From positions 62,001 through 126,000 of the forward strand of contig NZ_FOBW01000013.1 of NCBI RefSeq assembly GCF_900109925.1: a stretch of DNA of 64,000 nt, written 5' to 3'. Positions within the stretch are counted from its first letter, which is position 1. Every line of letters starts with the position of its first letter. Shown in pieces: positions 44,747 through 62,733 of this stretch. The notes beneath the pieces are model-generated. The model was not told where the DNA came from. It ran no database searches and was given only the letters and a program-made list of their open reading frames with translations. Source of the DNA: Mesobacillus persicus. GTDB taxonomy: Bacteria; Bacillota; Bacilli; Bacillales; Cytobacillaceae. A program made the position numbers and the translations under genes.

Positions 44747-46048
44747 TTATTTCCTGAGGGATTTAATTTTATAAAAGAATAATAGTCCTCCTGCCAGGAG
44801 AAGCGCTGGCCATAGAAGGCTTTGTTTTCCTGTGTTGCTTGTTAAAGGATGCTCATCCTCAAACATGATTTTGCTATTGTTCAAGAGTTCGTTCATTTTT
44901 TCATAAACAGTAATGGCGGGACTTTTTAAAAATAAATAGGTTAATTCTTGGTCCTCAATCAACTCGTAAAGGGAGGATTGGTAGGTTGCAGGAGTGTCGC
45001 CTATTCCGTTTTGGTCGAGATCAAGTAAGGCGAAGTCATTGCCCCAGTTGTTTCCTTTTCCGTCTTTACTCCAAAAATGATTTCCTGTTCCCCCGAGCGT
45101 AACTGCAGGCAATGTGTTTTCATCTATTAGATTCTCAGTGAAAACCTGGTCGTTCGAGCTAGCCCAAAGTTCTACACCGATTTGATTTTGGAAAATATGA
45201 TTTCCACGAATAAGGTTTCTCGTGGATTGATCTATATAGATACCTCGCTGATTCATGCGGAAAGTATTATTTTCAATAGAATTATCATTTGCCGATAACA
45301 GCAAAATCCCAAATGAACGGTGACCATAATTAAAAATAAATTCATTCTCTTCAAGCTTTAATCCATTGGAATGCATGATTGCAGCTCCGCCTGTATTAAA
45401 CGTGAATATGTTGTTTTTAAACTCATTTTCATTCGAATACATGAAATGGAGACCATACCTAGTTTTTGAAATTTGGTTATTTAAGACAACATTTCCATCT
45501 GCATAATCGAAGAACATGCCATCACGGGTGCCTTCAATTTCGTTATTACTTAAAGTGTTTTTATTCGAATAATAAATGTGTAGTCCATTTCCTTGTCCGG
45601 CAATTTCACCATCGCCACTACCAATGACCTGAACATGGTCAATCGTGTTTTCATGCGCCTGGCTTAAATAGATTCCGTGAAACGAGTTTTGAATCAATAA
45701 ATGCTCCAATGTGTTTCCATTTGTATAAACCTTAATGGCTGCATACTCCTCAGAGCTGTTGCGATTCATACTTCCATTTTCAACTTCAAAGTTCGAAAGA
45801 GTCACACCTTCTGCCCGGACCGAGATGACATTCCCAGTCGCATCTCCTCTGATAACTGTTTTATCTGCTCCAATTAGCTTTAGGGGCTTGTCAATGACAA
45901 TGTTTCCTTCGTACGTCTTATTTTCTAACTCGATGGTTGCGCCTTCTTCTGCCTCATCGATAATCGATTGGAGATTTTCAGTTGCTCCTGGCCTGCAGGG
46001 GCCGAGGATTAAGGCGAACAGAACGAGCAGGCTCAGGATTTTTTTCAT
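44747..46048 (-). CDS. nosD: NosD, exported beta-helix protein for NosZ maturation
   Basis: A 433-residue exported protein. The signal peptide (MKKILSLLVLFALILG) is followed by a right-handed parallel beta-helix with repeated N/G-rich turns (NTLSNNEIEG, NVVLNNQISKTRYG, NSIENNTFRMNQRG). A C-terminal membrane helix (LWPALLLAGGLLFFYKI) probably anchors it. The ATG at 46048 is chosen since AAGGACC precedes it and it overlaps the upstream stop as ATGA; an earlier ATG at 46066 lies within the preceding gene. NosD is required for CuZ assembly. Confidence 0.9.
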   Translation of the reverse strand: MKKILSLLVLFALILGPCRPGATENLQSIIDEAEEGATIELENKTYEGNIVIDKPLKLIGADKTVIRGDATGNVISVRAEGVTLSNFEVENGSMNRNSSEEYAAIKVYTNGNTLEHLLIQNSFHGIYLSQAHENTIDHVQVIGSGDGEIAGQGNGLHIYYSNKNTLSNNEIEGTRDGMFFDYADGNVVLNNQISKTRYGLHFMYSNENEFKNNIFTFNTGGAAIMHSNGLKLEENEFIFNYGHRSFGILLLSANDNSIENNTFRMNQRGIYIDQSTRNLIRGNHIFQNQIGVELWASSNDQVFTENLIDENTLPAVTLGGTGNHFWSKDGKGNNWGNDFALLDLDQNGIGDTPATYQSSLYELIEDQELTYLFLKSPAITVYEKMNELLNNSKIMFEDEHPLTSNTGKQSLLWPALLLAGGLLFFYKIKSLRK

Positions 46049-46611
46049 CTTTTTCGGTCCTTCCATAGTGGAATTAAGAGTAATAAAAATGCGGCCATGA
46101 CAAGATAGGAGCCTGTTCCCAAAATGCTATAAGTGGTGAAATTTGCAACGATATTCTCACCGATGATCGGGGGGATAAAGGGTTCCATCTCGATTGGTGC
46201 CATGGGATCTAGGTTTGTTCCGAAATCTTTAAGCCAGCGTCTTAAGTCCCATACGCCCAGGGTCCCACCAGCTGCAAAGAGGGCGATAACCGTATATAAA
46301 TACGCTTTTCTCCTGATTAGCGCTACTGATAAAACAATTACGGCTAAACCAATAATTAAATATTTTAGATACTGCAGTTCTGGGAAGTTTTCTTCGCTAA
46401 AGTTTTTCATCCCAATATAATGATTCAGTGCATTGATATTATCGATATCACCTTCGAGTTTGTCAGGGTAGACGATGATATTTAGGCCTTCTGGGTATTG
46501 GGGAGCAAAAAACTCCATTCGCCACCAAGGAAAGAACAAGGAGGCAAAAATCAGAAGAGCCGAAGCGACAATTAAAACCGATGAAACAAGAGAAAGTCGT
46601 TTTCCATTCAT
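46045..46611 (-). CDS. nosB: NosB-like membrane protein of the nos operon
   Basis: A 188-residue membrane protein with four helices (about 8-30, 90-108, 112-130, 160-180) and an external loop between the first two (PWWRMEFFAPQYPEGLN). Its place between nosZ and nosD matches nosB of clade II nos clusters, a gene of unknown function. The ATG at 46611 is preceded by AAGGCG. The frame stays open further upstream, but that part lies in a repeat element and is not protein-like. The stop overlaps nosD by four bases. Confidence 0.75.
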   Translation of the reverse strand: MNGKRLSLVSSVLIVASALLIFASLFFPWWRMEFFAPQYPEGLNIIVYPDKLEGDIDNINALNHYIGMKNFSEENFPELQYLKYLIIGLAVIVLSVALIRRKAYLYTVIALFAAGGTLGVWDLRRWLKDFGTNLDPMAPIEMEPFIPPIIGENIVANFTTYSILGTGSYLVMAAFLLLLIPLWKDRKR

Positions 46612-46655
46612 AATTGCTACACGCCTTTCTGTTTTAGGGCTATGTTTAAAAATAT

Positions 46656-46845
46656 GTTGATTTCCGCTCCAGGCGCTTGCTTTCCGCGGGGCGTGCGGTG
46701 AGCCTCCTCGTCGCTTTCGCTCCTGCGGGGTCTCACCTGTCCCGCTGCTCCCGCAGGACTCTGAAACACATCCTCGAATATGCCCACGCACGAGAAAATG
46801 TGCAGTTCATTTTCGAGGAGTCAAGCGCCTGGAGCTCCAATCAAC
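46656..46845. repeat. Long intergenic palindromic repeat, copy 4, with inserted foldback
   Basis: An inverted copy of the element (GTTGATTTCCGCTCCAGGCG ... GGAGCTCCAATCAAC), interrupted after CCCGCAGGACTC by about 55 foreign bases (roughly 46762-46816). The insert itself is framed by CCTCGAATATG and CATTTTCGAGG, complementary but for one base. The copy lies inside the nos operon. Confidence 0.85.
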
Positions 46846-46897
46846 GGTTAGCACAAAATCAACAACGTCCTTTAACAAAGCTTTTTTAAAAGGAAGA

Positions 46898-46923
46898 GGG
46901 CATCAAACTAGTTGTTGATACCC
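46898..46923 (-). terminator. Hairpin after nosZ, possible attenuator
   Basis: On the minus strand GGGTATCAA and TTTGATGCCC pair around CAACTAG, followed by TCTTCCTTTT. It resembles a weak terminator 23 bases beyond the nosZ stop and could lower transcription of the downstream maturation genes relative to nosZ. Confidence 0.55.
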
Positions 46924-46946
46924 AATCCCATTTTTTAAAATTCGAC

Positions 46947-48824
46947 TTATGGCTTAACTAAGAAATAACCTGACATTTCTTGGTGCAACGCCGAGCAGAA
47001 GTTTGTGCAATAAAGTGGGAAGGTTCCAGCTTTATCGGCTGTAAATTCAATTGTATTCGTTTGGCCTGGCTGGACTTCCATGTTTAAGTCATACTGGTTA
47101 ATCGCGAAGCCGTGAGTGATATCCTGGTCAAAGTCTGTGTTTGTTAAGTGGATATAGACTTTGTCACCTTTGTTGACTTCAATGACGTCTGGACGCTCTG
47201 CTTTCGCGTCAAAGATGAACTTAGAACGCATCGCAATCCCGTACACATGGACCTCATTGCCTTTTCGCTCAATTCTTGCATCTTCTTGCTTATAAACGGC
47301 ATATTTGTTGCTTTCATCTTTGTCATAAACAGAGATGGTCTTAATTTTATCCGCTTTAATCAACTGGGCGTAGTGCGGCTCAGGGTTCACCGGCGCTGAT
47401 TGAATCACTTCCATCTTGTCCCCACGTAAATCGATTAATTGCATTGACTCTGGGTGAGATGGCCCAACAGATAGATAGCTATCTTTTGCAATTTTGTTCA
47501 AAGCGATGATGTACTTTCCATCAGGTGCAACGGTATCTCCCTCAGCTGCAACAGCATGACCTGGAGAGTATTGAACAGGGACACGGTCTAATGTTTCACC
47601 AGTAGTAGGGTCCCATTTTACGATTTCTGAAGAGATGAACATGGTAGTGTAAGCCATGCCTTTGTCATCAAATTGAGTGTGTAGTGGTCCTAAAGCATTT
47701 TCTGGGTTAACTTCTCTTTCCATGATTGATTCGTAGTTGATGATTGGAATTCCGTTGCGCTCGCCAGCAAAATCTTGATTTTCAATTGCTGCAAATGCTT
47801 TTTCGAATGAGAATACAGTCATCGCAGGTGCCAATTTACCTGAAGCGATAAAGTGCTCGCCATCTGGAGTAACGTCTACACCGTGTGGAGACTTGGCAAC
47901 AGGGACGAGATAGATTCCGCCTTTATGCTTTTCAGGGAAGATCATTTTTTGACCAGTTACTTCATCATAATCACCTTCAGCAACCTTTTGCTCAAGCTCT
48001 TTCCAGTTGATTAGAACGATGTAGTCACGGTCTGCCTGTGATGCATTGATTTCTAAATTGGTTGTTGCTTCTTCCGTATTGTAAGTAGTGATAACGGCCC
48101 AGTCGCTCGACATTCCTTTACCTGCATCGGATAAGTCGTAAGACCACGGTGGCAGGGCGACCTGGTAGGCAACGTTTAATTCTTCTTTTTCTTCATTAAA
48201 AGTAACGGCGGACATGACCCCGCGGTACTGTTCACTATAATCGTCAAGGGATGCATACTCACTACCAATTGGTACGGCAAAACGAGTAGGGAGGAACATG
48301 TACTCCGTATTCTCAGTGACAAAGGCTGCACAGTGTGGGCCACTTGTATTAGGGACGTTAATGATGTCTCTAGTTGTAAACGTCTCAAGATTCATAACCG
48401 CCGCACGGCTGTTTGCGACATCGGTAGCAAATAAATATTTGCCATCATAATCACCATTTGTTTCTGATAGGGCCGGGTGATGGAGGTCACCCCAAGTAAA
48501 ATCACCCATTAACTCTTTTGTATGGTTGTCAAAACCATATCCGGTTGCAGAGTCAGGTGAGAAGACAGGAACCGTTCGAATATGACGCATCGAAGGAACT
48601 CCGTAAATAAACATTTGGCCTGAATGTCCACCTGAGGCCATTAAGTAGTACTCATCTTTTTCCCCAAATGGCACATACACCTTTTCTGCATTTGTTTTGG
48701 TTGCACTGTTACTATTGTCCGCGGTTACCTGTGTTTGTTTCTCAGGCGAGAAGTCTGCAAAAAAGACGGTCGCCGCGAGTAAACCAGTTGCGATCCCGGC
48801 TACGGGAGGTATCCATTTTTTCAT
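46947..48824 (-). CDS. nosZ: Nitrous oxide reductase, clade II (Sec-exported)
   Basis: A 625-residue enzyme that reduces N2O to N2 outside the membrane. The N-terminal beta-propeller carries the CuZ histidine motifs: DLHHPALSET, GPHCAAF, SPHGVDVTPDG, GPLHTQF, SPGHAVA and PEPHYAQL. The C-terminal cupredoxin domain holds the CuA site CTNFCSALHQEM (C606, C610, H614, M617). The signal region (residues 1-25) lacks twin arginines, the hallmark of clade II enzymes exported by Sec instead of Tat. It follows nosC by 75 bases. All catalytic residues that I can check are present. Confidence 0.95.
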   Translation of the reverse strand: MKKWIPPVAGIATGLLAATVFFADFSPEKQTQVTADNSNSATKTNAEKVYVPFGEKDEYYLMASGGHSGQMFIYGVPSMRHIRTVPVFSPDSATGYGFDNHTKELMGDFTWGDLHHPALSETNGDYDGKYLFATDVANSRAAVMNLETFTTRDIINVPNTSGPHCAAFVTENTEYMFLPTRFAVPIGSEYASLDDYSEQYRGVMSAVTFNEEKEELNVAYQVALPPWSYDLSDAGKGMSSDWAVITTYNTEEATTNLEINASQADRDYIVLINWKELEQKVAEGDYDEVTGQKMIFPEKHKGGIYLVPVAKSPHGVDVTPDGEHFIASGKLAPAMTVFSFEKAFAAIENQDFAGERNGIPIINYESIMEREVNPENALGPLHTQFDDKGMAYTTMFISSEIVKWDPTTGETLDRVPVQYSPGHAVAAEGDTVAPDGKYIIALNKIAKDSYLSVGPSHPESMQLIDLRGDKMEVIQSAPVNPEPHYAQLIKADKIKTISVYDKDESNKYAVYKQEDARIERKGNEVHVYGIAMRSKFIFDAKAERPDVIEVNKGDKVYIHLTNTDFDQDITHGFAINQYDLNMEVQPGQTNTIEFTADKAGTFPLYCTNFCSALHQEMSGYFLVKP

Positions 48825-51417: not shown

Positions 51418-51957
51418 TCTTTGTTCCTCCTTGGAGTTCTTCCATATATATAAGCCCTTTTGGTCTTTTTACGATTATACCATTCGCACATTAGGATATA
51501 AAGAAATCGGGGCTAGAGGTTAGAAGCTCATTTATAAGGTGAGTGGAGTCCAAAATGAAACACAATTTTAAATTGTGTAGAAATCTATCGAATGATGGTG
51601 ATAAATGTAACTGATAACTCATAGAAATTCCTTTAGGATAATTTATGTATTTTGCATTTTACCCCCGGTTTTCAAGCGTTTGCTATTTAATTACATTATT
51701 TACCTACACATAATAGACATAGTTTCGAAAAGGGATTGTAACAATTCGGACAACGATATAGGCTGACTTTCCTGTAAATTGGAATTATAGATTGATGCTG
51801 ACCATTATTGCTTGTTGTTTTGTTGAGGAATGAAAATATTGTTAACTGTGATGATTTTAACAGCAAATAATCTATAAAGTTTCTAAAATCATAGGGGAAT
51901 GTAGTCAAAACAGTTTGCTGGTTTTGGTAGGGCGGCAACTGATAAGGGGTGAAGAGA
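51418..51957. other. Divergent intergenic region before fdhD
   Basis: A gap of 540 bases between pdxK (minus) and fdhD (plus). The only clear structure is the perfect palindrome at 51560-51578. No TGTGA-N6-TCACA site of the nos type is visible. The fdh promoter was not identified. Confidence 0.6.
51560..51578. promoter_or_regulatory. Perfect palindrome upstream of the formate dehydrogenase genes
   Basis: ACACAATTT-T-AAATTGTGT, a perfect 9-1-9 inverted repeat, lies 140 bases from pdxK and 380 from fdhD. It is a plausible operator; the binding protein is unknown. Confidence 0.45.
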
Positions 51958-52752
51958 ATGCTTAAGAAAGGTTGTCCAGATGAATATCCAATCAATCTAG
52001 TTGTCAATGGTTTTGAAATTGCCGTTTTTCAATTAACAAATCAGGACTTAGTCGATTGGGCATATGGTTATCTTTATTCAGAGGGGCTAATTGACAGTGC
52101 TAATGATGTTGAGGCTGTCGAGTTCAATGAAGGTACGGGAACTATACAAGTTTCTTTAAATAATAGTTTTGACCCTGAACAAATGTTTTCTAAAAAGAAG
52201 CACTACACGGCTGGTTGTGGTCGCGGTGTGACATTCTTTTCGATGACAGATGTAAAGAATTTCAAGAAGGTAAGCTCGCGTGAGAAATATTCGCTAAGCT
52301 ATCTGCTTAAAAAGAGAAGTGAGTTTGCACAAAATACACCTCTTTATTTGGAAACGGGTGGGATGCATGGTGCCTGTATCATTCATGAGGATGGAATAAT
52401 CACCGTTCGTGAAGACATAGGGAGGCATAATGCTGTTGATAAAATTATCGGCTACGCCCTTAGAAAGCGCTTGCAACCCGAACGGCTCGTGTTACTAACG
52501 ACCGGTAGGGTTTCATATGAAATGCTCTCTAAAGCAGCTAAGTTTGGGTTTGCTGTGATAGGATCCCGAACGGCAGCTACTAAACAAGCTGTTCAATTAG
52601 CTAGATTTTTAAATATTGAAGTTGTGGGTTATTTAAGAGGGAAAATGGCAACAGTCTATACCTCATCAGGAAGAGTCTATGATGACGTCACAGGAACGAC
52701 TGTTACAAGCAAATCAATTGAAAGGGGTGAGGTACTCACTATTTTCAATTAG
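51958..52752 (+). CDS. fdhD: Formate dehydrogenase sulfur-transfer protein FdhD
   Basis: A 264-residue FdhD-family protein, needed to activate formate dehydrogenase by passing sulfur to the molybdenum cofactor. Family text includes EGLIDS near residue 43, GCGRGV near residue 86, ETGGMHGACI near residue 134, REDIGRHNAVDKIIG near residue 152 and TTGRVSYEM near residue 178. E. coli FdhD uses a C-X2-C pair; here only the first cysteine is present. The ATG at 51958 follows AAGGGGTGA; a GTG at 51949 overlaps that site. It lies 52 bases before the dehydrogenase gene. Confidence 0.9.
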   Translation: MLKKGCPDEYPINLVVNGFEIAVFQLTNQDLVDWAYGYLYSEGLIDSANDVEAVEFNEGTGTIQVSLNNSFDPEQMFSKKKHYTAGCGRGVTFFSMTDVKNFKKVSSREKYSLSYLLKKRSEFAQNTPLYLETGGMHGACIIHEDGIITVREDIGRHNAVDKIIGYALRKRLQPERLVLLTTGRVSYEMLSKAAKFGFAVIGSRTAATKQAVQLARFLNIEVVGYLRGKMATVYTSSGRVYDDVTGTTVTSKSIERGEVLTIFN

Positions 52753-52804
52753 TAAAAAGGGATAAGGGCTGTTTATTTTTTAAATTTGGGAAGGAGAGAG
52801 AGAG

Positions 52805-55789
52805 ATGGTTGAAATTAACCTCAATCGCCGGCAATTTTTAAAATTGACTGGGGCAACTGCAGCGACACTAGCCGTTGTAGAACTAGGCTTCAACGAAAAG
52901 GAAGTTCATGCCTCTACAAAAGAATTCAAAATTGCTAAAACAACTGTAACACCAACCATTTGTTGCTACTGCGGTGTAGGGTGCGGCATCTTGGTACACA
53001 CAAACGATGAAACCGTAGTTTATACGGAAGGGGATCCAGATAACCCGATAAATGAAGGAAAGCTTTGTAGTAAAGGTACTACATTAAGGCAATTATACAC
53101 GTCTGAAAAGCGCTTAACTAAGCCACTATACCGTGCCCCGGGTAGTGAAAAGTGGGAAGAAAAGTCTTGGGATTGGATGTACGATACAATCGCTAAGCGA
53201 GTTAAGGAAACCCGTGATAAAACATTTGTCCATAAAGAAAATGGGATTACTGTTAATAAAACAGAGACAATTGCTAGCCTAGGTGGGGCAGCATTAGATA
53301 ATGAAGAGACTTATCTTCTTGCAAAGTTAATGAGAGGGCTTGGCGTTACCTATATAGAACACCAGGCACGAATATGACACAGTTCAACGGTTGCCGGTCT
53401 GGCACCATCGTTTGGACGTGGAGCAATGACAAACCACTGGAATGATTTACAACATACCGATGTAGCAATGATCATTGGTGCAAACCCTGCAGAAAATCAT
53501 CCAATTAGCTTTAGATGGTTGTTAAAAGCAAGGGAAAGAGGCGGGAAAATTATTTCCGTTGACCCACGCTTTACAAGGTCATCAGCACAAGCAGATTTAT
53601 ATTCACCACTACGATCTGGAACAGATATTGCCTTTATCGGTGGGATGATTAATTACACGCTTCAAAACAACTTGTTCCACAAGGAATATGTTGCAAAATA
53701 TACTAATGCCTCGTTTATTGTGAAAAAGAGTTTCAAATTCGATGATGGTTTATTTTCCGGATTCGATGAAGCAACTAGCTCTTACGATAAAACACAATGG
53801 GCTTTCGAAACAGATAAGGATGGAAAACCCCTAAGGGATGAAAAACTAGAAAACCCTCGTTCAGTTTTCCAACTTATGAAAAAGCACTATTCCCGCTATG
53901 ATGCGGAAACAGTATCGACCGTAACAGGGTCACCAAAAGAGGACTTCTTAAAAGTTTGTGAATTATTCTGTTCAACAGGGAAAGCTGGCAAAGCTGGTAC
54001 AATCATGTATGCAATGGGAACAACACAACACACAGTTGGTACCCAAAACGTACGCAGTTATGCAATGCTTCAATTATTGCTCGGAAACATTGGACTACCT
54101 GGGGGCGGGGTGAACGCACTTCGTGGAGAATCTAATGTACAGGGTTCAACGGATTTCGCACTATTATGGGGAGATCTGCCTGGATATATTGGAGCTCCAA
54201 AAGCAATTCCTGAACATGCAACCCTAGAAGCCTTTCTAGAAAAGGAAACTCCTAAGGCGGGTTATTGGAGTAATAAACCTAAATTTGTGGTTAGCCTCTT
54301 GAAGGCATGGTATGGACCAAATGCAACAAAGGATAATGAGTTTGCATATCAAATGCTTCCAAAAGGAAACAAAAATTATTCACACATCTCTTTATTCAAT
54401 GCTATGTACAAAGGCGAACTAGAGGGCACATTCTTATTTGGCCAGAATCCTGTAGTCGGGGGACCAAATGCTGGAAAGGAAAAAGAATCTCTTTCCAACC
54501 TCAAATGGATGGTTGCCGTTGACCTTTGGGAGACAGAAACTTCCTCCTTCTGGCAAAAAGAAGCAGGTAGTGATCCATCGACTATTGCGACAGAAGTGTT
54601 CCTATTACCTGCATCCTCTTCTTTTGAAAAAGAGGGAAGTGTTACAAATAGTTCACGTTGGATGCAGTACCGCTGGAAGGCAATTGATTCTAGAGGAGAA
54701 GCAAAAGCAGACCTAGAAATTATTCATATCCTTGCTACCAAAATTAAAGAACTATATAAAAACGAAAGTACTCCTGCGGCTCAGCCAATAAAAGCATTGC
54801 ATTGGGAGTATGGTCATGGAGACCATCCGGATATCGACATCGTCTGTAAGGAAATCAATGGATATGATTACAAAACAGGCAAGCAAGTTCCAGGGTTTGG
54901 CGCTCTGATGGATGACGGAAGTACTTGCAGTGGAAACTGGATTTACTCTGGGTTCTATCCAGAAGAAGGAAATAACAGGTCGAAGTCACGTGACAGTAAG
55001 AACACAGATGGTGGAACCAACTTCTTGAATTGGTCATATGCATGGCCGGCAAACCGACGAATTCTATACAACCGTGCTTCTGCTGACCCAAGTGGTAAAC
55101 CGTGGAGCGAAGAGAGAGCAGTAATAAATTGGGATGCATCACAAAAGAAATGGGTAGGAAATGATATCCCTGATTTTGTTCCAACAAAGGCGCCAACCGA
55201 TGAGGGTGGAACAAACCCATTCATCATGTTAGGAGATGGAGTTGCTGGTATGTTTGTACCAACTTTAAACGATGGTCCATTCCCAGAGCATTATGAGCCA
55301 TTTGAAAGCCCTGTCCCGAACGTTTTCTCTAGTGTCGAGATGAATCCAACAGTAAAGGTATGGGATGGAGACTTTAACAAAAAAGGAAATTATAAGGATT
55401 TCCCTATAGTGGCTACAACCTACCGTGTCAGTGAGCATTGGCAATCAGGATCGATGACCCGTAACCAGGAATGGTTATCTGAGCTAGTTGCTCATATGTA
55501 CGTTGAAATTAGTGAAGAACTTGCTAAAGAAAAAGGTATTAAAAATAAAGATAAAATTGTTGTCAGCTCCGCACGTGGGGATGTCACTGCCTATGCGATG
55601 GTTACAAAGCGCTTTAAGCCATATAAGCTAAACGGTGGCACTATTCACCACATTGGCATGCCATGGCACTTTGGATATAAGGGGTATGCAACAGGAGATA
55701 CGGCCAATCGCTTAACACCTCACATTGGTGATGCGAACACAATGATTCCTGAATATAAAGCATTCCTCTGTAATGTAAGGAGGGCTTAA
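52805..55789 (+). CDS. fdnG: Selenocysteine-containing formate dehydrogenase alpha subunit (FDH-N type)
   Basis: A single 994-residue reading frame if the in-frame TGA at 53375-53377 (codon 191) is read as selenocysteine. A twin-arginine signal (NLNRRQFLK) leads, then a [4Fe-4S] site (C53, C56, C60, C88) and the molybdopterin domains. The context QARI-U-HSSTVAGLAPSFGRGAM matches the active-site selenocysteine region of E. coli FdnG (Sec196). A SECIS hairpin follows. Mature protein acts on the outer face of the membrane, oxidising formate to CO2. It is followed by beta and gamma subunits. Automatic gene callers would split it into 52805-53377 and 53426-55789. Selenocysteine genes (selA, selB, selC, selD) are not in the window. 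Confidence 0.93.
53375..53406 (+). promoter_or_regulatory. Bacterial SECIS element for selenocysteine insertion
   Basis: Directly after the TGA, GG-T-TGCC, loop GGTCT, and GGCA-CC fold into a stem with a bulged T and a GGTCT apical loop. Exactly 18 bases separate the TGA from the loop. The loop, bulge and distance are the same as in the E. coli fdhF SECIS that binds SelB. Confidence 0.92.
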
Positions 55790-55791
55790 CG

Positions 55792-56622
55792 ATGGCTACT
55801 AAATATGTAAAATATGTTGATGTAACAAAGTGTGATGGTTGCCGTGCGTGTATGGTTGCATGTAAGAACTGGAACGATCTACCTGCAGAGCCTCAAGACT
55901 TTTTAGGAAGCATGCAGTCTCACGCAAACGTCACAGCGGATACTTGGAATGTTCTTACTTTTGTCGAACATGAAAATTCAAAAGGGAATTTAGACTATCT
56001 TTTCCGCCATTCATCTTGTTTCCATTGTACGGATGCTGCTTGTGAAAAGGTTTGTCCAGAAAATGCTATTAGTTACACTGATAAAGGGATGGTTGTTGTT
56101 GACCAGGAAGTATGTGTTGGTTGCGGATACTGTGAACAAAACTGCCCGTTTGATGTAATTCACCTTAAAACATACAAGGATGAAAATGGCAAAGAGTACC
56201 GGAAGGCGCATAAATGTACAATGTGTACTGATCGCTTAGATGAAGGTTTACAACCTGCTTGTGTAACAACATGCCATACCGGTGCAATGGAATTCGGTGA
56301 AAAGGATGAAATAATCAGCAAAGCCGAGAAACGAGTTAAAGAAATTAAAGAGCGTTATCCAAATGCGCAAGTGTATAACCCTCAAGGAGTCGGTGGGACA
56401 CACACAATATATGTGCTTGCTGAAAAGCCATCGGTATATGGCTTACCTGAGAATCCGAAGGTTCCTACATCTGCTGTCCTATGGAAAGACTATGCTCAGC
56501 CAATAGGTAAGGCAATGGTCGGCGGCGTTGCAATGGCACTAGCTGGTGCTTTTGTTGCCAATAAGTTCTTTGATAAGAAGAACGGAGGACAAGAAGAGGA
56601 TGGGGGTGGCAACCATGAGTAA
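55792..56622 (+). CDS. fdnH: Formate dehydrogenase beta subunit, four-cluster ferredoxin (FdnH-like)
   Basis: A 276-residue iron-sulfur protein with four [4Fe-4S] cysteine sets: CDGCRACMVAC near residue 14, CFHCTDAACEKVC near 78, CVGCGYCEQNC near 110, and CTMCTDRLDEGLQPACVTTC near 140. A C-terminal membrane helix (about 240-260, VGGVAMALAGAFVANKFF) anchors it. It carries electrons from the alpha subunit to the cytochrome b subunit. It begins two bases after the alpha stop and overlaps the gamma gene by eight bases. Confidence 0.93.
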   Translation: MATKYVKYVDVTKCDGCRACMVACKNWNDLPAEPQDFLGSMQSHANVTADTWNVLTFVEHENSKGNLDYLFRHSSCFHCTDAACEKVCPENAISYTDKGMVVVDQEVCVGCGYCEQNCPFDVIHLKTYKDENGKEYRKAHKCTMCTDRLDEGLQPACVTTCHTGAMEFGEKDEIISKAEKRVKEIKERYPNAQVYNPQGVGGTHTIYVLAEKPSVYGLPENPKVPTSAVLWKDYAQPIGKAMVGGVAMALAGAFVANKFFDKKNGGQEEDGGGNHE

Positions 56623-57325
56623 AACACACAACTCTCAATTGCAAGTAAAGCGTTTTTCAAAGGCATTTGTTTGGGCACATGCTATAAATGGTATTGCATT
56701 TATCGGACTATATATAACAGCATTACCAATGTATACAGAGTTTTTCGATTGGTTATATCCATTGATGGGTGGACCAGAGGGAGCTCGTCTCGCCCATAGA
56801 GTCCTTGCTGTTGCGTTTATACTACCAACATTTATATTCTTAATTTTTGATCCTAAAGGGTTTATGAACTGGATGAAAGAACTAGTAACCTGGAAGAAAA
56901 GAGATCTACAGTTTTTCTCAGAATTTGTTAAGGAATTATTTGGCTTTAAATCTAAGCATGTTAAACAAACATTCTTTAATGCTGGCGAGAAGATTAACTC
57001 TCTTCTACAGATTGTCTGTGCAATCCTATTAATTGCTTCAGGCTTCACGATGTGGTTTCCAGATGCATTCCCAACAGCTTTAGTTCAGTGGGGATATTTC
57101 CTTCATAATGTTGGATTTGGCCTTGGTTTTGCAGTAGTCCTTGGACATATTTATCTGAGTGTTATTCATAAAAATTCACGACCAGGATTTACCGGCGTTA
57201 TTACAGGGAAAGTTCCTGCAGAGTGGGCAAAAGACCACTATACTGAATGGTATGAAGAAGAAGTGAAAAAAGGCAACTTCCCTGATTTAGATGATCCAAA
57301 GAATAACAAGAAAAAAGGCGCGTAA
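56615..57325 (+). CDS. fdnI: Formate dehydrogenase cytochrome b gamma subunit (FdnI-like)
   Basis: A 236-residue membrane cytochrome b with four helices. Histidines in AHAINGIAFI, ARLAHRVLAV, FLHNVGFGLG and VLGHIYLSVIHK can bind two haems. It passes electrons to menaquinone. The ATG at 56615 sits inside the beta gene with GGGGGTGG upstream; the long frame open from 56546 is not used. A terminator-like hairpin follows. Confidence 0.92.
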   Translation: MSKTHNSQLQVKRFSKAFVWAHAINGIAFIGLYITALPMYTEFFDWLYPLMGGPEGARLAHRVLAVAFILPTFIFLIFDPKGFMNWMKELVTWKKRDLQFFSEFVKELFGFKSKHVKQTFFNAGEKINSLLQIVCAILLIASGFTMWFPDAFPTALVQWGYFLHNVGFGLGFAVVLGHIYLSVIHKNSRPGFTGVITGKVPAEWAKDHYTEWYEEEVKKGNFPDLDDPKNNKKKGA

Positions 57326-57342
57326 ACTGCAACCTTTATAAC

Positions 57343-57380
57343 CAAAATGGCTGTCTGTCAAAGGACAGCCATTCTTTTCA
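57343..57380 (+). terminator. Terminator after fdnI
   Basis: AATGGCTGTCT and AGGACAGCCATT pair around GTCAA and are followed by CTTTTC. The fdhE gene starts 130 bases later, so it may be partial readthrough or a separate unit. Confidence 0.75.
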
Positions 57381-57401
57381 TACTAACTAAAGATGCTACT
57401 A

Positions 57402-57512: not shown

Positions 57513-58322
57513 ATGAAAAAATCCGTTGTTTCAAAAGAATACACAAACTTACAGAAAGAAATTATTAAGCTACAAGAGCAGTGGAAACAAAGCCTTACTC
57601 CTGAGATTGTGAAACCAAGTCTTGATAAGGCAGCGATAGAGGCAGGAGTGCCAGCTGCAGCTCTAACGGCTATTGACTTTGACATTCCCCTATTCCTACA
57701 GTGGATAGATGAAATAAATGATTTAATTTCGAAACAAAATCCAGAACAAGGACCAAGGGTAAAAAAGCTTGGTGAATTATTAGACTCAGAGACAGCCATT
57801 CGATGGATTGACGAGGCTTTCTCTTTGAACCAATTTTATTTTGTAAGTTTTGCACAGGAAAACGAAATCGAAGAATGGATCCCACAGTTTTTTGCTGAGA
57901 CAGCATTAAGACCTTATCTACAACTTGTAGCGGAAGTGCTTAAGGATGAAATCACACAGGCTATTCCAGGATTAGGCTGCCCTGTATGTGGAGAACCTGT
58001 ACGATTGGCACAATTAGAGGGTGAAGGGAAAAAGGTGGTAAACTGTCCACGTTGTCTAGCACATTGGTCTGAAAAAAGAGTTTGCTGTTCACATTGTGGA
58101 AACGATGATCATAAGACCATTCAAAATATAACCATTGAGGGGGACCCCACCTCACAAATCCAAGTTTGTGAAAAATGCCATGGATATGTGAAGGTTATTG
58201 ATACAAGACAATTCATTTCTAAGCCATCTTCTGCTATTCTTGATTTAAACACTATTCATTTAGATTTTGTTGCTCAAGAAAATGGTTACACAGTTTCAGC
58301 GAGGGAAAGTGAGTCTAACTAA
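57513..58322 (+). CDS. fdhE: Formate dehydrogenase accessory protein FdhE
   Basis: A 269-residue protein of the FdhE family, required for formate dehydrogenase maturation. Its C-terminal half has four Cys-X2-Cys knuckles (CPVC, CPRC, CSHC, CEKC) that form rubredoxin-like metal sites. The N-terminal half is helical. The ATG is preceded by AAAGAGGTG. It follows the dehydrogenase operon and precedes cofactor genes. Confidence 0.9.
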   Translation: MKKSVVSKEYTNLQKEIIKLQEQWKQSLTPEIVKPSLDKAAIEAGVPAAALTAIDFDIPLFLQWIDEINDLISKQNPEQGPRVKKLGELLDSETAIRWIDEAFSLNQFYFVSFAQENEIEEWIPQFFAETALRPYLQLVAEVLKDEITQAIPGLGCPVCGEPVRLAQLEGEGKKVVNCPRCLAHWSEKRVCCSHCGNDDHKTIQNITIEGDPTSQIQVCEKCHGYVKVIDTRQFISKPSSAILDLNTIHLDFVAQENGYTVSARESESN

Positions 58323-58397: not shown

Positions 58398-58440
58398 TCT
58401 TTTAAGTTAACAGAGCTATTGAAAAAAGAAGGTGCGATTA

Positions 58441-59040
58441 ATGAAAGCTGGAGCGATTATCTTATCCGGTGGCAAATCAAGCAGAATGGGAACCAACAAA
58501 GCACTACTACCATTCAATGAAAAAACAAATATTGAAAGAATCAGGGACGAACTTCGCTCCCTGTTTGATGATATTATTCTAGTAACAAATGATCCTAATG
58601 CCTATGAATTTTTAAACATAAAAACGGTCAGCGATAAATATCCAGGCAAGGGACCTCTTGCGGGTGTTCATGCTGGATTGATGGCCTCTGATTATGAAGA
58701 GAACATCGTGGTTGCCTGTGACATGCCTTTTGTATCAGCAGACCTTGCAGGCACACTTGTTCAGAATTTAAAACATTTTGATGCGATTATTCCAGTGATT
58801 AGTGGAAAAAAACATCCGTTATTTGCTGCCTATCAAAAACGGATTGCCTCAGAGATTGAAGGTTGTTTAAAAGAAGATCGCCTACGTATGATTCATTTAT
58901 TGGACAAGCTCAATGTCCGTTATCTGGAGGAAGTTGATTTACATGCATACGGGGACGGTCGTTTAGAAGAAATCTTTTTCAATATGAATTTTCCAGAGGA
59001 ATACGAAGACGCAAAAAAGCGGGTAGAATTAGGGGAATAA
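58441..59040 (+). CDS. mobA: Molybdenum cofactor guanylyltransferase MobA
   Basis: A 199-residue nucleotidyltransferase. The GTP-binding signature LSGGKSSRMGTNKALLPF is near residues 8-25, GPLAGVHAGL near residue 75, and the metal-binding CDMPF near residue 98. It links GMP to molybdopterin to give the bis-MGD form used by formate dehydrogenase. The ATG at 58441 follows GAAGGTG. Confidence 0.92.
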   Translation: MKAGAIILSGGKSSRMGTNKALLPFNEKTNIERIRDELRSLFDDIILVTNDPNAYEFLNIKTVSDKYPGKGPLAGVHAGLMASDYEENIVVACDMPFVSADLAGTLVQNLKHFDAIIPVISGKKHPLFAAYQKRIASEIEGCLKEDRLRMIHLLDKLNVRYLEEVDLHAYGDGRLEEIFFNMNFPEEYEDAKKRVELGE

Positions 59041-59073
59041 AGACGTTTGGTCAGAAGAAAGGGTGGAGTGGAG

Positions 59074-60306
59074 ATGCAATTCTTTAAAGTGAAAACCGTG
59101 GAGGAAACCTTTGCCTTAATTGAGGAGAAAATCCCGAAAATTAGGGAGGTGCTCGTCTGCAACCTTGAAGAGGCTCTCCATTGCATTCTTGCGGAACCGG
59201 TTGTAGCAGCTGAGGATGTGCCAGGATTTGACCGATCAACCGTGGATGGATATGCCGTTTTTTCTAAAGATACCTATGGTTCATCCGAATCGATGCCTGG
59301 CTTTTTAAACGTCGCTGGTGAAGTGAAAATGGGGGAAGAGGCATCCATTCCGCTTTCTAGAGGGAATGCGATTTATGTTCCGACCGGAGGCATGCTCCCT
59401 CCTGGCAGCGACAGTGTATTAATGATTGAACATTGTGAGGAAATCGGCGGGTTACTAAATACGTATAAACAAATTGCCCCTGGTGAAAATGTGATACGGG
59501 CTGGCGAAGATATTCAGGCTGGAGAGGTTCTGCTTGAAGTTGGTACAAAGCTTCGTCCCCAAGAAATTGGAGCTCTAGCATCGCTTGGCATCTCGAAAGT
59601 AAGCGTTTTTCGCCCAATAAAAGCGGCGTATTTATCCACTGGAGATGAAATTGTTCCTTACGACACAGAAACCCTTGAAATCGGACAAATTCGCGATATC
59701 AATTATTTAACCGTGTCCGGACTTGCGCGTGAATGGGGCGTTGAGGTCATTTACGGCGGGATTACAACCGATGATTATGAGATCTTTTCGGCGAAGGCTC
59801 GGGAGCTATATGAACAAGCAGATATTTTAATTTTATCAGGGGGAAGTTCGGTAGGTGCCAAGGACTATACGACGGAAGTCATACAATCGCTTGGAGACCC
59901 TGGGGTATTTGTTCATGGGATAAGCATCAAGCCGGGAAAACCAACGATTTTAGCCGTAGCAGAAGGCAAGCCAGTGATTGGTCTACCGGGACATCCCGCG
60001 TCTGCAATGATTATTTTTAGATTGTTCGGTGAAAAGGTCATTAAACAGCTTCAAGGAGAACGGTTGGAGAGAAAGCCCGAACGAATTCTTGCACGAATCA
60101 CAAAGAATATCGCTTCCGCACCGGGACGCTCTGATTATATTCGTGTTCGATTAGTTGAAAAGGATGGCGAATGGTGGGCAGATCCGATTATTGGGAAGTC
60201 CGGTTTGATTACAACACTTGTAAAAAGTGATGGGATTGTTGAGATTGTCTCAGAAAAAGAAGGAATCTCACAGGGAGAATACGTACCTGTTTTAGCATCG
60301 AAATGA
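59074..60306 (+). CDS. moeA: Molybdopterin molybdenumtransferase MoeA
   Basis: A 410-residue MoeA that inserts molybdate into adenylylated molybdopterin. Motifs: FDRSTVDGYAV near residue 52, VPTGGMLPPGSD near residue 98, STGDEIV near 190, ILSGGSSVGAKDYT near 252, and GLPGHPAS near 302. GGGTGGAG precedes the ATG at 59074. The next gene starts 14 bases past its stop and encodes a second MoeA domain. Confidence 0.93.
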   Translation: MQFFKVKTVEETFALIEEKIPKIREVLVCNLEEALHCILAEPVVAAEDVPGFDRSTVDGYAVFSKDTYGSSESMPGFLNVAGEVKMGEEASIPLSRGNAIYVPTGGMLPPGSDSVLMIEHCEEIGGLLNTYKQIAPGENVIRAGEDIQAGEVLLEVGTKLRPQEIGALASLGISKVSVFRPIKAAYLSTGDEIVPYDTETLEIGQIRDINYLTVSGLAREWGVEVIYGGITTDDYEIFSAKARELYEQADILILSGGSSVGAKDYTTEVIQSLGDPGVFVHGISIKPGKPTILAVAEGKPVIGLPGHPASAMIIFRLFGEKVIKQLQGERLERKPERILARITKNIASAPGRSDYIRVRLVEKDGEWWADPIIGKSGLITTLVKSDGIVEIVSEKEGISQGEYVPVLASK

Positions 60307-60320
60307 GGGGGAGCTTAAAA

Positions 60321-62240
60321 ATGGATGAAAAGAGATACCAGCGGAAAATTTATTTGGAAGATAAGCCTAGAGGCGAAGCGGTCAATGAAATTCTTGAAGC
60401 CGCCAGCTTGTCGCCGAAAACCGAATTCATCCCAACGAGTGAAGCCCTTGGTCGAATTACCTCGGAGCCGGTATTCGCCAAAGTTTCGATGCCGCATTTC
60501 CATGCCTCCGCGATGGATGGCGTTGCAGTGAATGCGGAGGATACGTATGAGGCTCATGAACAGCGTCCTTTACATTTAAGTAAGGGAGAGCAGTTTGTAT
60601 ACGTTGATACAGGAAATGCTATCCCGCAGCAGTTTAATGCGGTCATTATGATTGAGAACGTTCAAATTTTAGACGATGAAACAATTGAAATCATTGAGCC
60701 AGCTACCCCATGGCAGCATATTCGGCCGATTGGTGAGGATATCGTTCAAGAGGAAATGTTGTTTCCACAGGGGCACAGGTTAAGGCCGGCCGATCTTGGT
60801 GCTTTACTGGCTGCGCAAATTACCGAGGTACCGGTCGCAAAAAAGCCTTTAGTCACTATTATCCCGACTGGAAGCGAGCTGATCCAAGCAGAATCATCAT
60901 TGACTTCTGGTAAAATAATTGAATTTAATGGAACGGTATTTGCCAACTATATAAAAGAGTGGGGCGGGGAGCCTGATTTAAAGGCGATCGTCAGAGATGA
61001 GCCAGAAAATATTAAAAAAGCGCTGTTAGATGCGGTCGAAGTTTCCGATATTGTCGTCATAAATGCTGGGTCATCAGCAGGTTCAAAGGATTATACCGTT
61101 CATATTATTGCAGAACTCGGCACCGTTTTTACCCATGGAGTGGCCACTAGACCAGGAAAGCCAGTGATTCTCGGCCAAATCAACGGGAAAATTGTTGTTG
61201 GTGTGCCTGGGTATCCAGTGTCGGCCTATTTAGCGCTCGAATGGTTTGTGAGACCGCTCGTTTGTCAGTATCTACAGATTCCAGTCCCAAAAAGGCAAAC
61301 ATTAGAAGTGAAACTAGGTCGTCGCATTGTTTCGACAATGGGAGCAGAGGACTTTGTTCGAATGAATATCGGCTATGTGAATGGACAATTTATTGCCAAT
61401 CCGCTTACGAGAGCAGCAGGAGTAACGATGTCGCTAGTAAGGGCAGATGGCCTTCTCGTTGTATCTCCTGATCTTTTAGGTTATGAGCAAGGGGACACGG
61501 TTGAGATTGAATTACTTCGCCCTCTTGAAGAGATTAGAAATAGCATCGTCTTTTCAGGTAGCCATGATTTAACGATTGACTTGCTTTCTTCTCAACTTAA
61601 AAGACAGCGGAATGACATGAGAATTGTTTCTTCCCACGTAGGCAGCATGGCTGGTGTCATGGCAATTAGAAAAGGGGAAGCCCATGTAGCGGGCATTCAT
61701 TTGCTTGACCCGGAGACGAAGGAATATAATGTTTCCTATGTAAAAAAACTTCTTGCCGGTCAAGAGGTCGTCCTTTATCCATTTTTGAAGAGAACCCAAG
61801 GATGGATTGTTCCAAAAGGAAATCCTTTAAAAGTCAACGATGTAGCTGGTTTAGCAGAGGCTCAAGCTGAGTATGCGAACCGGCAGAAGGGGGCAGGAAC
61901 AAGAATTCTCTTTGATTTACTTTTAAAAGAACAGAGAATATCCCCAGAACAAATTAATGGGTATGACCGTGAAATGTTCTCGCATTTAAGTGTAGCAGCG
62001 GAAGTAAAGGGGAATGAAAAGGCCGCCGGTCTAGGAATTTACCCAGCCGCAAAAGCGATGAATCTAGACTTTATCCCAGTCGCGGACGAATCGTATGATC
62101 TATTAATGACAAAAGCCTTCTTTGAAAGTGAACAAGGTCGTTGGCTTGTATCAATTATCCAATCAGAAGCTTTTAAAATAGAAGTAGATAAAATTGGAGG
62201 CTACGCAGTCGCTAGTGATGCAGAGCCGATTTATATTTAG
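60321..62240 (+). CDS. Second MoeA fused to a periplasmic-binding-type domain
   Basis: A 639-residue fusion. Residues about 1-405 form a MoeA domain (FHASAMDGVAV, IPTGSELIQ, INAGSSAGSKDYT, GVPGYPVS). Residues about 415-639 form a substrate-binding-protein-like (LysR-effector/PBP) domain, beginning IVFSGSHDLTIDLLSSQL and including RKGEAHVAGIHLLDPE and GAGTRILFDLLL. The fold pair is known as MoeA-PBP. It may bind molybdate or tungstate near the insertion site (inference). The ATG at 60321 has GGGGGAG upstream, better than the ATG at 60303, which overlaps the moeA stop. Confidence 0.87.
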   Translation: MDEKRYQRKIYLEDKPRGEAVNEILEAASLSPKTEFIPTSEALGRITSEPVFAKVSMPHFHASAMDGVAVNAEDTYEAHEQRPLHLSKGEQFVYVDTGNAIPQQFNAVIMIENVQILDDETIEIIEPATPWQHIRPIGEDIVQEEMLFPQGHRLRPADLGALLAAQITEVPVAKKPLVTIIPTGSELIQAESSLTSGKIIEFNGTVFANYIKEWGGEPDLKAIVRDEPENIKKALLDAVEVSDIVVINAGSSAGSKDYTVHIIAELGTVFTHGVATRPGKPVILGQINGKIVVGVPGYPVSAYLALEWFVRPLVCQYLQIPVPKRQTLEVKLGRRIVSTMGAEDFVRMNIGYVNGQFIANPLTRAAGVTMSLVRADGLLVVSPDLLGYEQGDTVEIELLRPLEEIRNSIVFSGSHDLTIDLLSSQLKRQRNDMRIVSSHVGSMAGVMAIRKGEAHVAGIHLLDPETKEYNVSYVKKLLAGQEVVLYPFLKRTQGWIVPKGNPLKVNDVAGLAEAQAEYANRQKGAGTRILFDLLLKEQRISPEQINGYDREMFSHLSVAAEVKGNEKAAGLGIYPAAKAMNLDFIPVADESYDLLMTKAFFESEQGRWLVSIIQSEAFKIEVDKIGGYAVASDAEPIYI

Positions 62241-62271
62241 ATTAACCAGAACCTTGAGGTGAATAGAATTG

Positions 62272-62733
62272 ATGTATGAAATAGCAAAAGAAAATATCGA
62301 CATCCAATCGGTGATAGATAAAGTCGTACAACGCGAAGCAGGCGCCATCACAACATTCATTGGAACAGTAAGAGAATTGACAAAGGGAAAGAAAACCCTA
62401 TTTCTCGTATATGAAGCCTATGAATCGATGGCCGTTAAAAAGTTAGAGCAAATTGGCACTGAGATTAAGGAACGCTGGGAAGGCGCGGAAGTTGCGATCA
62501 CTCACCGTGTGGGTAGACTTGATATTACCGATATTGCCGTGGTGATTGCTGTATCAACGCCGCATCGTGCTGATGCTTATGAAGCGAACCGCTATGCGAT
62601 TGAAAGAATCAAAGAAATCGTCCCAATCTGGAAAAAAGAGCATTGGGAAGATGGCCAAGAGTGGATTGGAAACCAATTAGAAACCGTATCATACCCAACC
62701 GGAAAACCAGAGGAGGGTGACTTAAATGAATAA
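62272..62733 (+). CDS. moaE: Molybdopterin synthase catalytic subunit MoaE
   Basis: A 153-residue large subunit of molybdopterin synthase. Motifs: GAITTFIGTVRE near residue 25, YEAYESMAVKKL near 48, THRVGRLDITDIAVVIAVS near 77, and the catalytic lysine region PIWKKE near 118. The GAGGTGA site precedes both TTG 62269 and ATG 62272; the ATG is chosen. It overlaps moaD by eight bases. Confidence 0.92.
   Translation: MYEIAKENIDIQSVIDKVVQREAGAITTFIGTVRELTKGKKTLFLVYEAYESMAVKKLEQIGTEIKERWEGAEVAITHRVGRLDITDIAVVIAVSTPHRADAYEANRYAIERIKEIVPIWKKEHWEDGQEWIGNQLETVSYPTGKPEEGDLNE

Follow-up and report, generated by a model that had tools for sequence, protein, structure and literature searches.

A probable selenocysteine-containing formate dehydrogenase-N of Mesobacillus persicus, and the selenocysteine trait in its family

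The alpha subunit of formate dehydrogenase tops the table of bacterial selenoprotein families (PMC5029168, Table 3: 822 organisms), so that the biochemistry considered here is not new. Selenoproteins in Bacillales have likewise already been on record since the tabulation by Zhang and others (2006, PMC1794560), Table 2 of which gives three selenoprotein families and three selenoproteins for Firmicutes/Bacillales; according to a passage of the same paper, every selenoproteome had FdhA or SelD. Bacillales, Bacillus, Bacilli, Bacillota and Firmicutes are absent from the main text of a 2026 review (PMC13188914), and no passage on Bacillales, Bacillus, Bacilli or Firmicutes was found in the available text of PMC12013277, PMC5330540 and PMC4561486. 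Our search also returned no paper on this particular gene, which is weak evidence, most subscription-journal papers lying outside its reach. The bSECIS model, in the passage of PMC13188914 that sets it out, has a loop of 3-9 nt with a G in the first two positions, an upper stem of 4-16 bp, a distance of 16-37 nt from the UGA and a minimum free energy of -7.5 kcal/mol or lower, for a folded length that the passage leaves unspecified.

Against this background, we analysed a 64,000-nt stretch of the M. persicus genome (hereafter the window), which carries a gene with an in-frame TGA and a nearby hairpin:

52805..55789, + strand: fdnG-like formate dehydrogenase-N alpha subunit with predicted selenocysteine at residue 191 (TIGR01553, Pfam, translation with TGA as U)
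53375..53377, + strand: in-frame TGA, predicted selenocysteine codon 191 (alignment to fdnG; codon conservation in named loci)
53389..53406, + strand: apical hairpin of the putative SECIS, GGTTGCC-GGTCT-GGCACC, with a bulged T at 53391 and the loop at 53396-53400 (conservation, covariation, offset as in fdhF)

Translation of 52805-55789 with TGA as selenocysteine yielded a single 994-residue protein with one recoded codon, U191. Under table 11, the same stretch breaks up into one ORF of 190 aa and another of 787 aa; a plain ORF caller would accordingly divide the gene, as the sequence-only reading of this DNA had warned of standard tools. The alpha subunit scored 1306.4 bits against TIGR01553 (cut-off 814.2) over residues 6-992 of 994, that is, at full length and on both sides of the TGA, and contained the Pfam domains Molybdop_Fe4S4, Molybdopterin and Molydop_binding. 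Its N-terminus carries NRRQFLKLTG, read from the sequence, which we take to be a twin-arginine (Tat) motif. At the active-site position, residue 191 aligned with residue 196 of E. coli fdnG, TGA being the codon in both, which bears out the earlier claim that the TGA lies at the active-site selenocysteine of FDH-N enzymes.

The genes around the alpha subunit were the following:

51949..52752, + strand: fdhD (TIGR00129, 167.9 bits, cut-off 140.9; PF02634)
55792..56622, + strand: iron-sulfur beta subunit (TIGR01582, 231 bits, below the cut-off of 334.7; 4Fe-4S domains)
56615..57325, + strand: cytochrome b gamma subunit (TIGR01583, 87 bits, below the cut-off of 115.85; PF01292, 63.2, cut-off 30.1)
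57513..58322, + strand: FdhE-like accessory protein (TIGR01562, 47.5 bits, below the cut-off of 187.65; PF24860, 29.7, cut-off 27)
58432..62733, + strand: molybdenum cofactor gene block (Pfam over cut-offs), comprising the next four genes
58432-59040, + strand: MobA-like (Pfam over, NCBIfam below cut-off)
59047-60306, + strand: MoeA-like (Pfam over, NCBIfam below cut-off)
60303-62240, + strand: MoeA with a PBP-like domain (Pfam over cut-off; NF011068, 720.9 bits, cut-off 534)
62269-62733, + strand: MoaE (Pfam over cut-off)

Thus, fdhD lies directly upstream of the alpha gene, and the beta and gamma genes directly downstream, followed by the FdhE-like and molybdenum cofactor genes. The fdhD product, presumably a sulfurtransferase required for formate dehydrogenase activity, stayed below the cut-off of NF001943 (176.7 vs 269 bits). 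For the gamma subunit, the ATG that precedes SKTHNSQ was inferred as the start; its longest ORF starts at 56546. Although beta and gamma adjoin alpha in the order of FdnGHI, both score below the curated NCBIfam cut-offs, and we therefore term the complex FdnGHI-like only. The window scan at Rfam gathering thresholds matched no family, and the tRNA scan of the window returned no tRNA, tRNA-Sec sitting on another contig. A plasmid origin was also considered and set aside, as a megablast search of 72,556 plasmid records with positions 52600-57400 of the window gave zero matches. Separately, nosZ (nitrous oxide reductase, TIGR04246) and nosD are found on the minus strand at 44747-48824, about 4 kb and more upstream of the fdh genes; the "Sec" in the name of TIGR04246 presumably denotes the export pathway and not selenocysteine. 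Given these neighbours, formate oxidation may feed denitrification.

The two ORFs of the table 11 reading are what one would expect of a pseudogene, broken or in decay, whose TGA is either a genuine stop or an error of sequencing. However, among the 80 best named homologous loci, TGA stands at this codon in 78 and a Cys codon in two (L113 and L141), and the frame is otherwise open across 994 codons. The site was located by pattern in 79 of these loci, spurious matches in L067, L075, L087 and L108 being discarded, and separately in L138. As the top 80 of a set of at least 583 relatives, the loci lean to close kin; the nearest named copy among them, that of Mesobacillus maritimus PL-B2, is 94% identical. 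Checking of 40 loci (L022-L061, own copy included) in sequence gave 38 TGA and two Cys codons (L052 and L053), the Cys homologues having TGC or TGT where the window has TGA. In the family survey, 121 of 193 genomes matched the dehydrogenase at E 1e-100 or better, each with TGA in at least one piece; stops were counted in this survey, not placed, and the five listed stop-free pieces came from genomes with another TGA piece. The sequence-only reading had itself named a sequencing error, with TGC in homologues, as the finding that would speak against it; with TGA in 78 of the 80 named loci, such an error is very unlikely. As a side observation, L053 and L113 agree in their bases at the site and are apparently one copy from two collections. 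In two genomes, the Sec copy is accompanied by a Cys paralogue: G184 (Cys copy L052, with L055) and G006 (Cys copy L053, with L054), both Cys copies being without the hairpin core.

We then turned to the hairpin, the GGTCT loop of which starts 18 bases past the TGA, as had been claimed. In 77 of the 80 named loci, one and the same core, ACGGTTGCCGGTCTGGC, comes after the TGA at unchanged spacing; the exceptions are the two loci with Cys, L113 and L141, which have no core, and L134, where the core after the TGA is a variant. In the Cys copies (L052, L053, L113 and L141), the surrounding protein sequence is kept, whereas the GCCGGTCTGGC core is absent. Synonymous sites were scored in 78 TGA sequences (77 named loci and the window) at 204 four- or six-fold sites where the amino acid is nearly invariant, from an alignment that took in 79 of the 80 named loci, L139 being left out. 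Codons 195-200, which encode stem and loop, showed a mean synonymous entropy of 0.09 bits vs 1.65 at other sites, no other six-site run in the gene being as low (permutation p ~5e-5, the floor of the test). A run with 36 sequences agreed with this picture; its extraction pattern included the hairpin, yet 35/35 input loci matched, so none was lost. Synonymous sites frozen 3' of the TGA are a further argument against gene decay, and together with the shared TGA and the open frame they render the pseudogene very improbable.

Covariation was assessed in 14 sequences hand-picked for diversity from the fetched loci, with the structure taken from the window, so that this test leans towards the structure. 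Within that set, 92.9% of cells pair, a value reached by 0/500 shuffles, and shifting the partner by 1 to 3 columns lowered pairing to 31-52%. Stem pair 18-30 was seen as UA, UG, CG and GC, and pair 20-28 as CG and GU. Pairs changed on both sides numbered two, which 79/500 shuffles also reach, and so do not go beyond shuffles. In two diverged FDH-N alpha genes with TGA (48-49% identical; L060:1577-1627 and L061:1571-1621), AGTTT replaces the GGTCT loop and the stem bases are altered but still pair.

The folding check suggested by the sequence-only reading came out mixed. The bare 18-base hairpin folds with one bulged T at -6.3 kcal/mol, two neighbouring Ts being interchangeable, which agrees with the stem proposed earlier. 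With flanks (51 bases), in contrast, a CC on the 3' side forms the bulge in the minimum-energy fold of -17.0 kcal/mol, and the bulged-T hairpin within these 51 nt, with no lower stem, reaches -7.8 kcal/mol; the bulged-T stem is thus best for the bare hairpin but not for the flanked one. A 28-nt fold gives -8.1 kcal/mol, but this is a different fold from the bulged-T form. The window satisfies the bSECIS geometry, with a 5-nt loop GGUCU, six stem pairs with one bulge and 18-nt spacing. Its standing against the -7.5 kcal/mol limit depends on the length folded (-8.1 at 28 nt, -7.8 at 51 nt, -6.3 at 18 nt). Relative to shuffles, the folding energy is unexceptional (z -0.93, 37/200 shuffles at least as good; z -1.11 in a second run). 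Because the energy alone was not significant, it was replaced by the synonymous-site and covariation tests, and it is this comparative evidence, not energy, that makes the putative SECIS hairpin stand out beyond chance.

An unexceptional energy would also suit a hairpin that has become inactive, in a gene that is present but undecoded as a relic of selenium use. Strong purifying constraint on the hairpin codons across many genera contradicts this, and so does the intact machinery, which leaves a relic with hardly any probability. Indeed, the search for selA, selB, selC and selD proposed by the sequence-only reading located all four in the same genome over curated cut-offs: selB at 367 bits (cut-off 242) on contig C15, tRNA-Sec at 63.5 bits (cut-off 47) on C23, with anticodon tca according to ARAGORN, selA at 576 bits (cut-off 268) on C28 and selD at 395 bits (cut-off 125) near selA on the same contig. 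The absence of selB and selC, which that reading had singled out as fatal, is therefore not what the genome presents. With the fdh genes on C33, the sel genes lie on three contigs and share no operon with fdh.

The genome holds four candidate selenoproteins, namely the alpha subunit and three others:

L062:5733-6794 (G000:C28): SelD; an in-frame TGA, within KAGUGCK, takes the place of the Cys of TGA-free SelD proteins
L062:5371-5607 (G000:C28), minus strand: Rdx/SelW-like protein of 78 residues (PF10262, 72 bits, cut-off 22.6)
L171:4179-6317 (G000:C24), minus strand: second Sec-type formate dehydrogenase (TIGR01591, 789 bits, cut-off 666)

SelD, the selenium supplier, would thus itself be a selenoprotein. 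Its TGA sits in GUGCK in 6/6 TGA loci read, own included, and the seven SelD rows without TGA among the matches listed, in which the codon is TGC or TGT, all belong to genomes with no selB match. This pattern bears on whether the TGA could be read otherwise, by general read-through or through a reassignment as Trp or Cys that needs neither SECIS nor SelB. Such a route would likewise yield a full-length protein, but no support for it was found. Against it stand the SelD rows just described (although G145 and G189 have a TGA-type SelD and tRNA-Sec with no selB match at threshold), the Cys homologues devoid of the hairpin core, the 77 of 78 TGA loci that keep that core unchanged and the complete Sec machinery of the genome; taken together, they make this route a very poor candidate.

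The gene of the Rdx/SelW-like protein, which has a CMMU (CxxU) motif, adjoins selD. Rdx matches were obtained in 160 of 193 family genomes, with one row without TGA (G032) among the matches listed. The second dehydrogenase was located via its predicted SECIS with a covariance model of the window hairpin (R1). This model was built from the 14 sequences including the window, so the window's own element was found by construction; the genome search returned that element and one other (27 bits, E 0.013, a rough value). The TGA of the second dehydrogenase lies in GCNRT-U-HASS, with the stem GUCGCC-GGUCU-GGCGAC, and relatives occur in 130/193 genomes; several of these rows have extra stops, some of which must stem from the query extending upstream of the likely start, with others in G015 and G021.

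Together, the machinery, the TGA in 78/80 named loci, the near-frozen hairpin codons and the loss of the core in Cys copies argue for selenocysteine insertion by the standard SelB/SECIS route as the best explanation. We put the probability at roughly 0.97 that this route decodes the TGA and that the product of the alpha gene is the catalytic subunit of an FdnGHI-type respiratory formate dehydrogenase bound to the membrane. By analogy with the established biology of such systems, SelA would convert seryl-tRNA-Sec to selenocysteyl-tRNA-Sec with selenophosphate from SelD, and SelB would bind both selenocysteyl-tRNA-Sec and the hairpin just past the UGA, so that selenocysteine is placed at codon 191 rather than translation stopping. 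In the finished enzyme, selenium would be a ligand of molybdenum, and electrons from formate would reach the quinone pool by way of the iron-sulfur and cytochrome b subunits.

We also surveyed the selenocysteine trait across the family. selB exceeded its cut-off in 170 of 193 family genomes, tRNA-Sec was present in 171 and selD in 180. In an order-wide even sample, selB was over cut-off in 179/397 genomes and 67/136 genera. The dehydrogenase gene and selB tended to occur together, which favours the SelB route: both were found in 119 of the 193 family genomes, the gene only in two, selB only in 51 and neither in 21 (Fisher p 1.6e-8, uncorrected for relatedness). The two genomes with the gene and no selB match, G006 (88% complete) and G079 (66%), are incomplete assemblies. 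As for the 51 genomes with selB and no dehydrogenase match at E 1e-100, a Sec-type SelD, Rdx or second dehydrogenase may keep the trait there. The Bacillus subtilis control genome had no selB match at the survey threshold, which may explain how the notion arose that selenocysteine is missing from Bacillaceae.

These counts overturn the remark of the sequence-only reading that selenoproteins are uncommon in Bacillaceae, within which NCBI taxonomy places Mesobacillus: with selB, tRNA-Sec and, in 121/193 genomes, the dehydrogenase, the selenocysteine trait is the norm in the family. On balance, we favour the view that selenocysteine use is a core and largely vertically kept, if putative, family trait with scattered sel genes, which would serve up to four selenoproteins (two formate dehydrogenases, selenophosphate synthetase and the Rdx/SelW-like protein) and which the published surveys that we searched hardly mention for Bacilli. 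The present case corrects the idea of rare selenoproteins in Bacillaceae, at least for Mesobacillus- and Neobacillus-like genera, and the gene was correctly read although a plain ORF caller splits it. Apart from this correction on rarity, the finding, real and correctly read, is an ordinary one, and the SelB/SECIS mechanism that we infer here, with very good support, would be the standard one.

Compared with its closest relatives, the Sec-type FDH alpha copies of Mesobacillus, Neobacillus, Cytobacillus, Schinkia, Evansella and other Bacillaceae, the gene is ~61-94% identical and has the same TGA; these copies also share the SECIS core, the Cys copy L113 excepted, and nothing of substance differs. 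With E. coli fdnGHI it shares the alpha-beta-gamma order, an aligned Sec codon and 47% identity in alpha (463/975 aligned residues), and differs in the beta and gamma scores, which fall short of the NCBIfam equivalog thresholds. The GGTCT of the window is missing from E. coli fdnG, where AAGTCT stands in its place. Of the first 42 bases counted from the TGA, the window has 30 in common with E. coli fdhF and 31 with fdnG. E. coli fdhF, whose enzyme is of a different type and, at 715 codons, shorter, resembles the window in its SECIS, with a GGTCT loop 18 bases after the TGA and a stem T able to bulge. The claim that the layout equals that of fdhF therefore holds for the loop offset but not for the pairs between bulge and loop, four in the window and three in E. 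coli fdhF.
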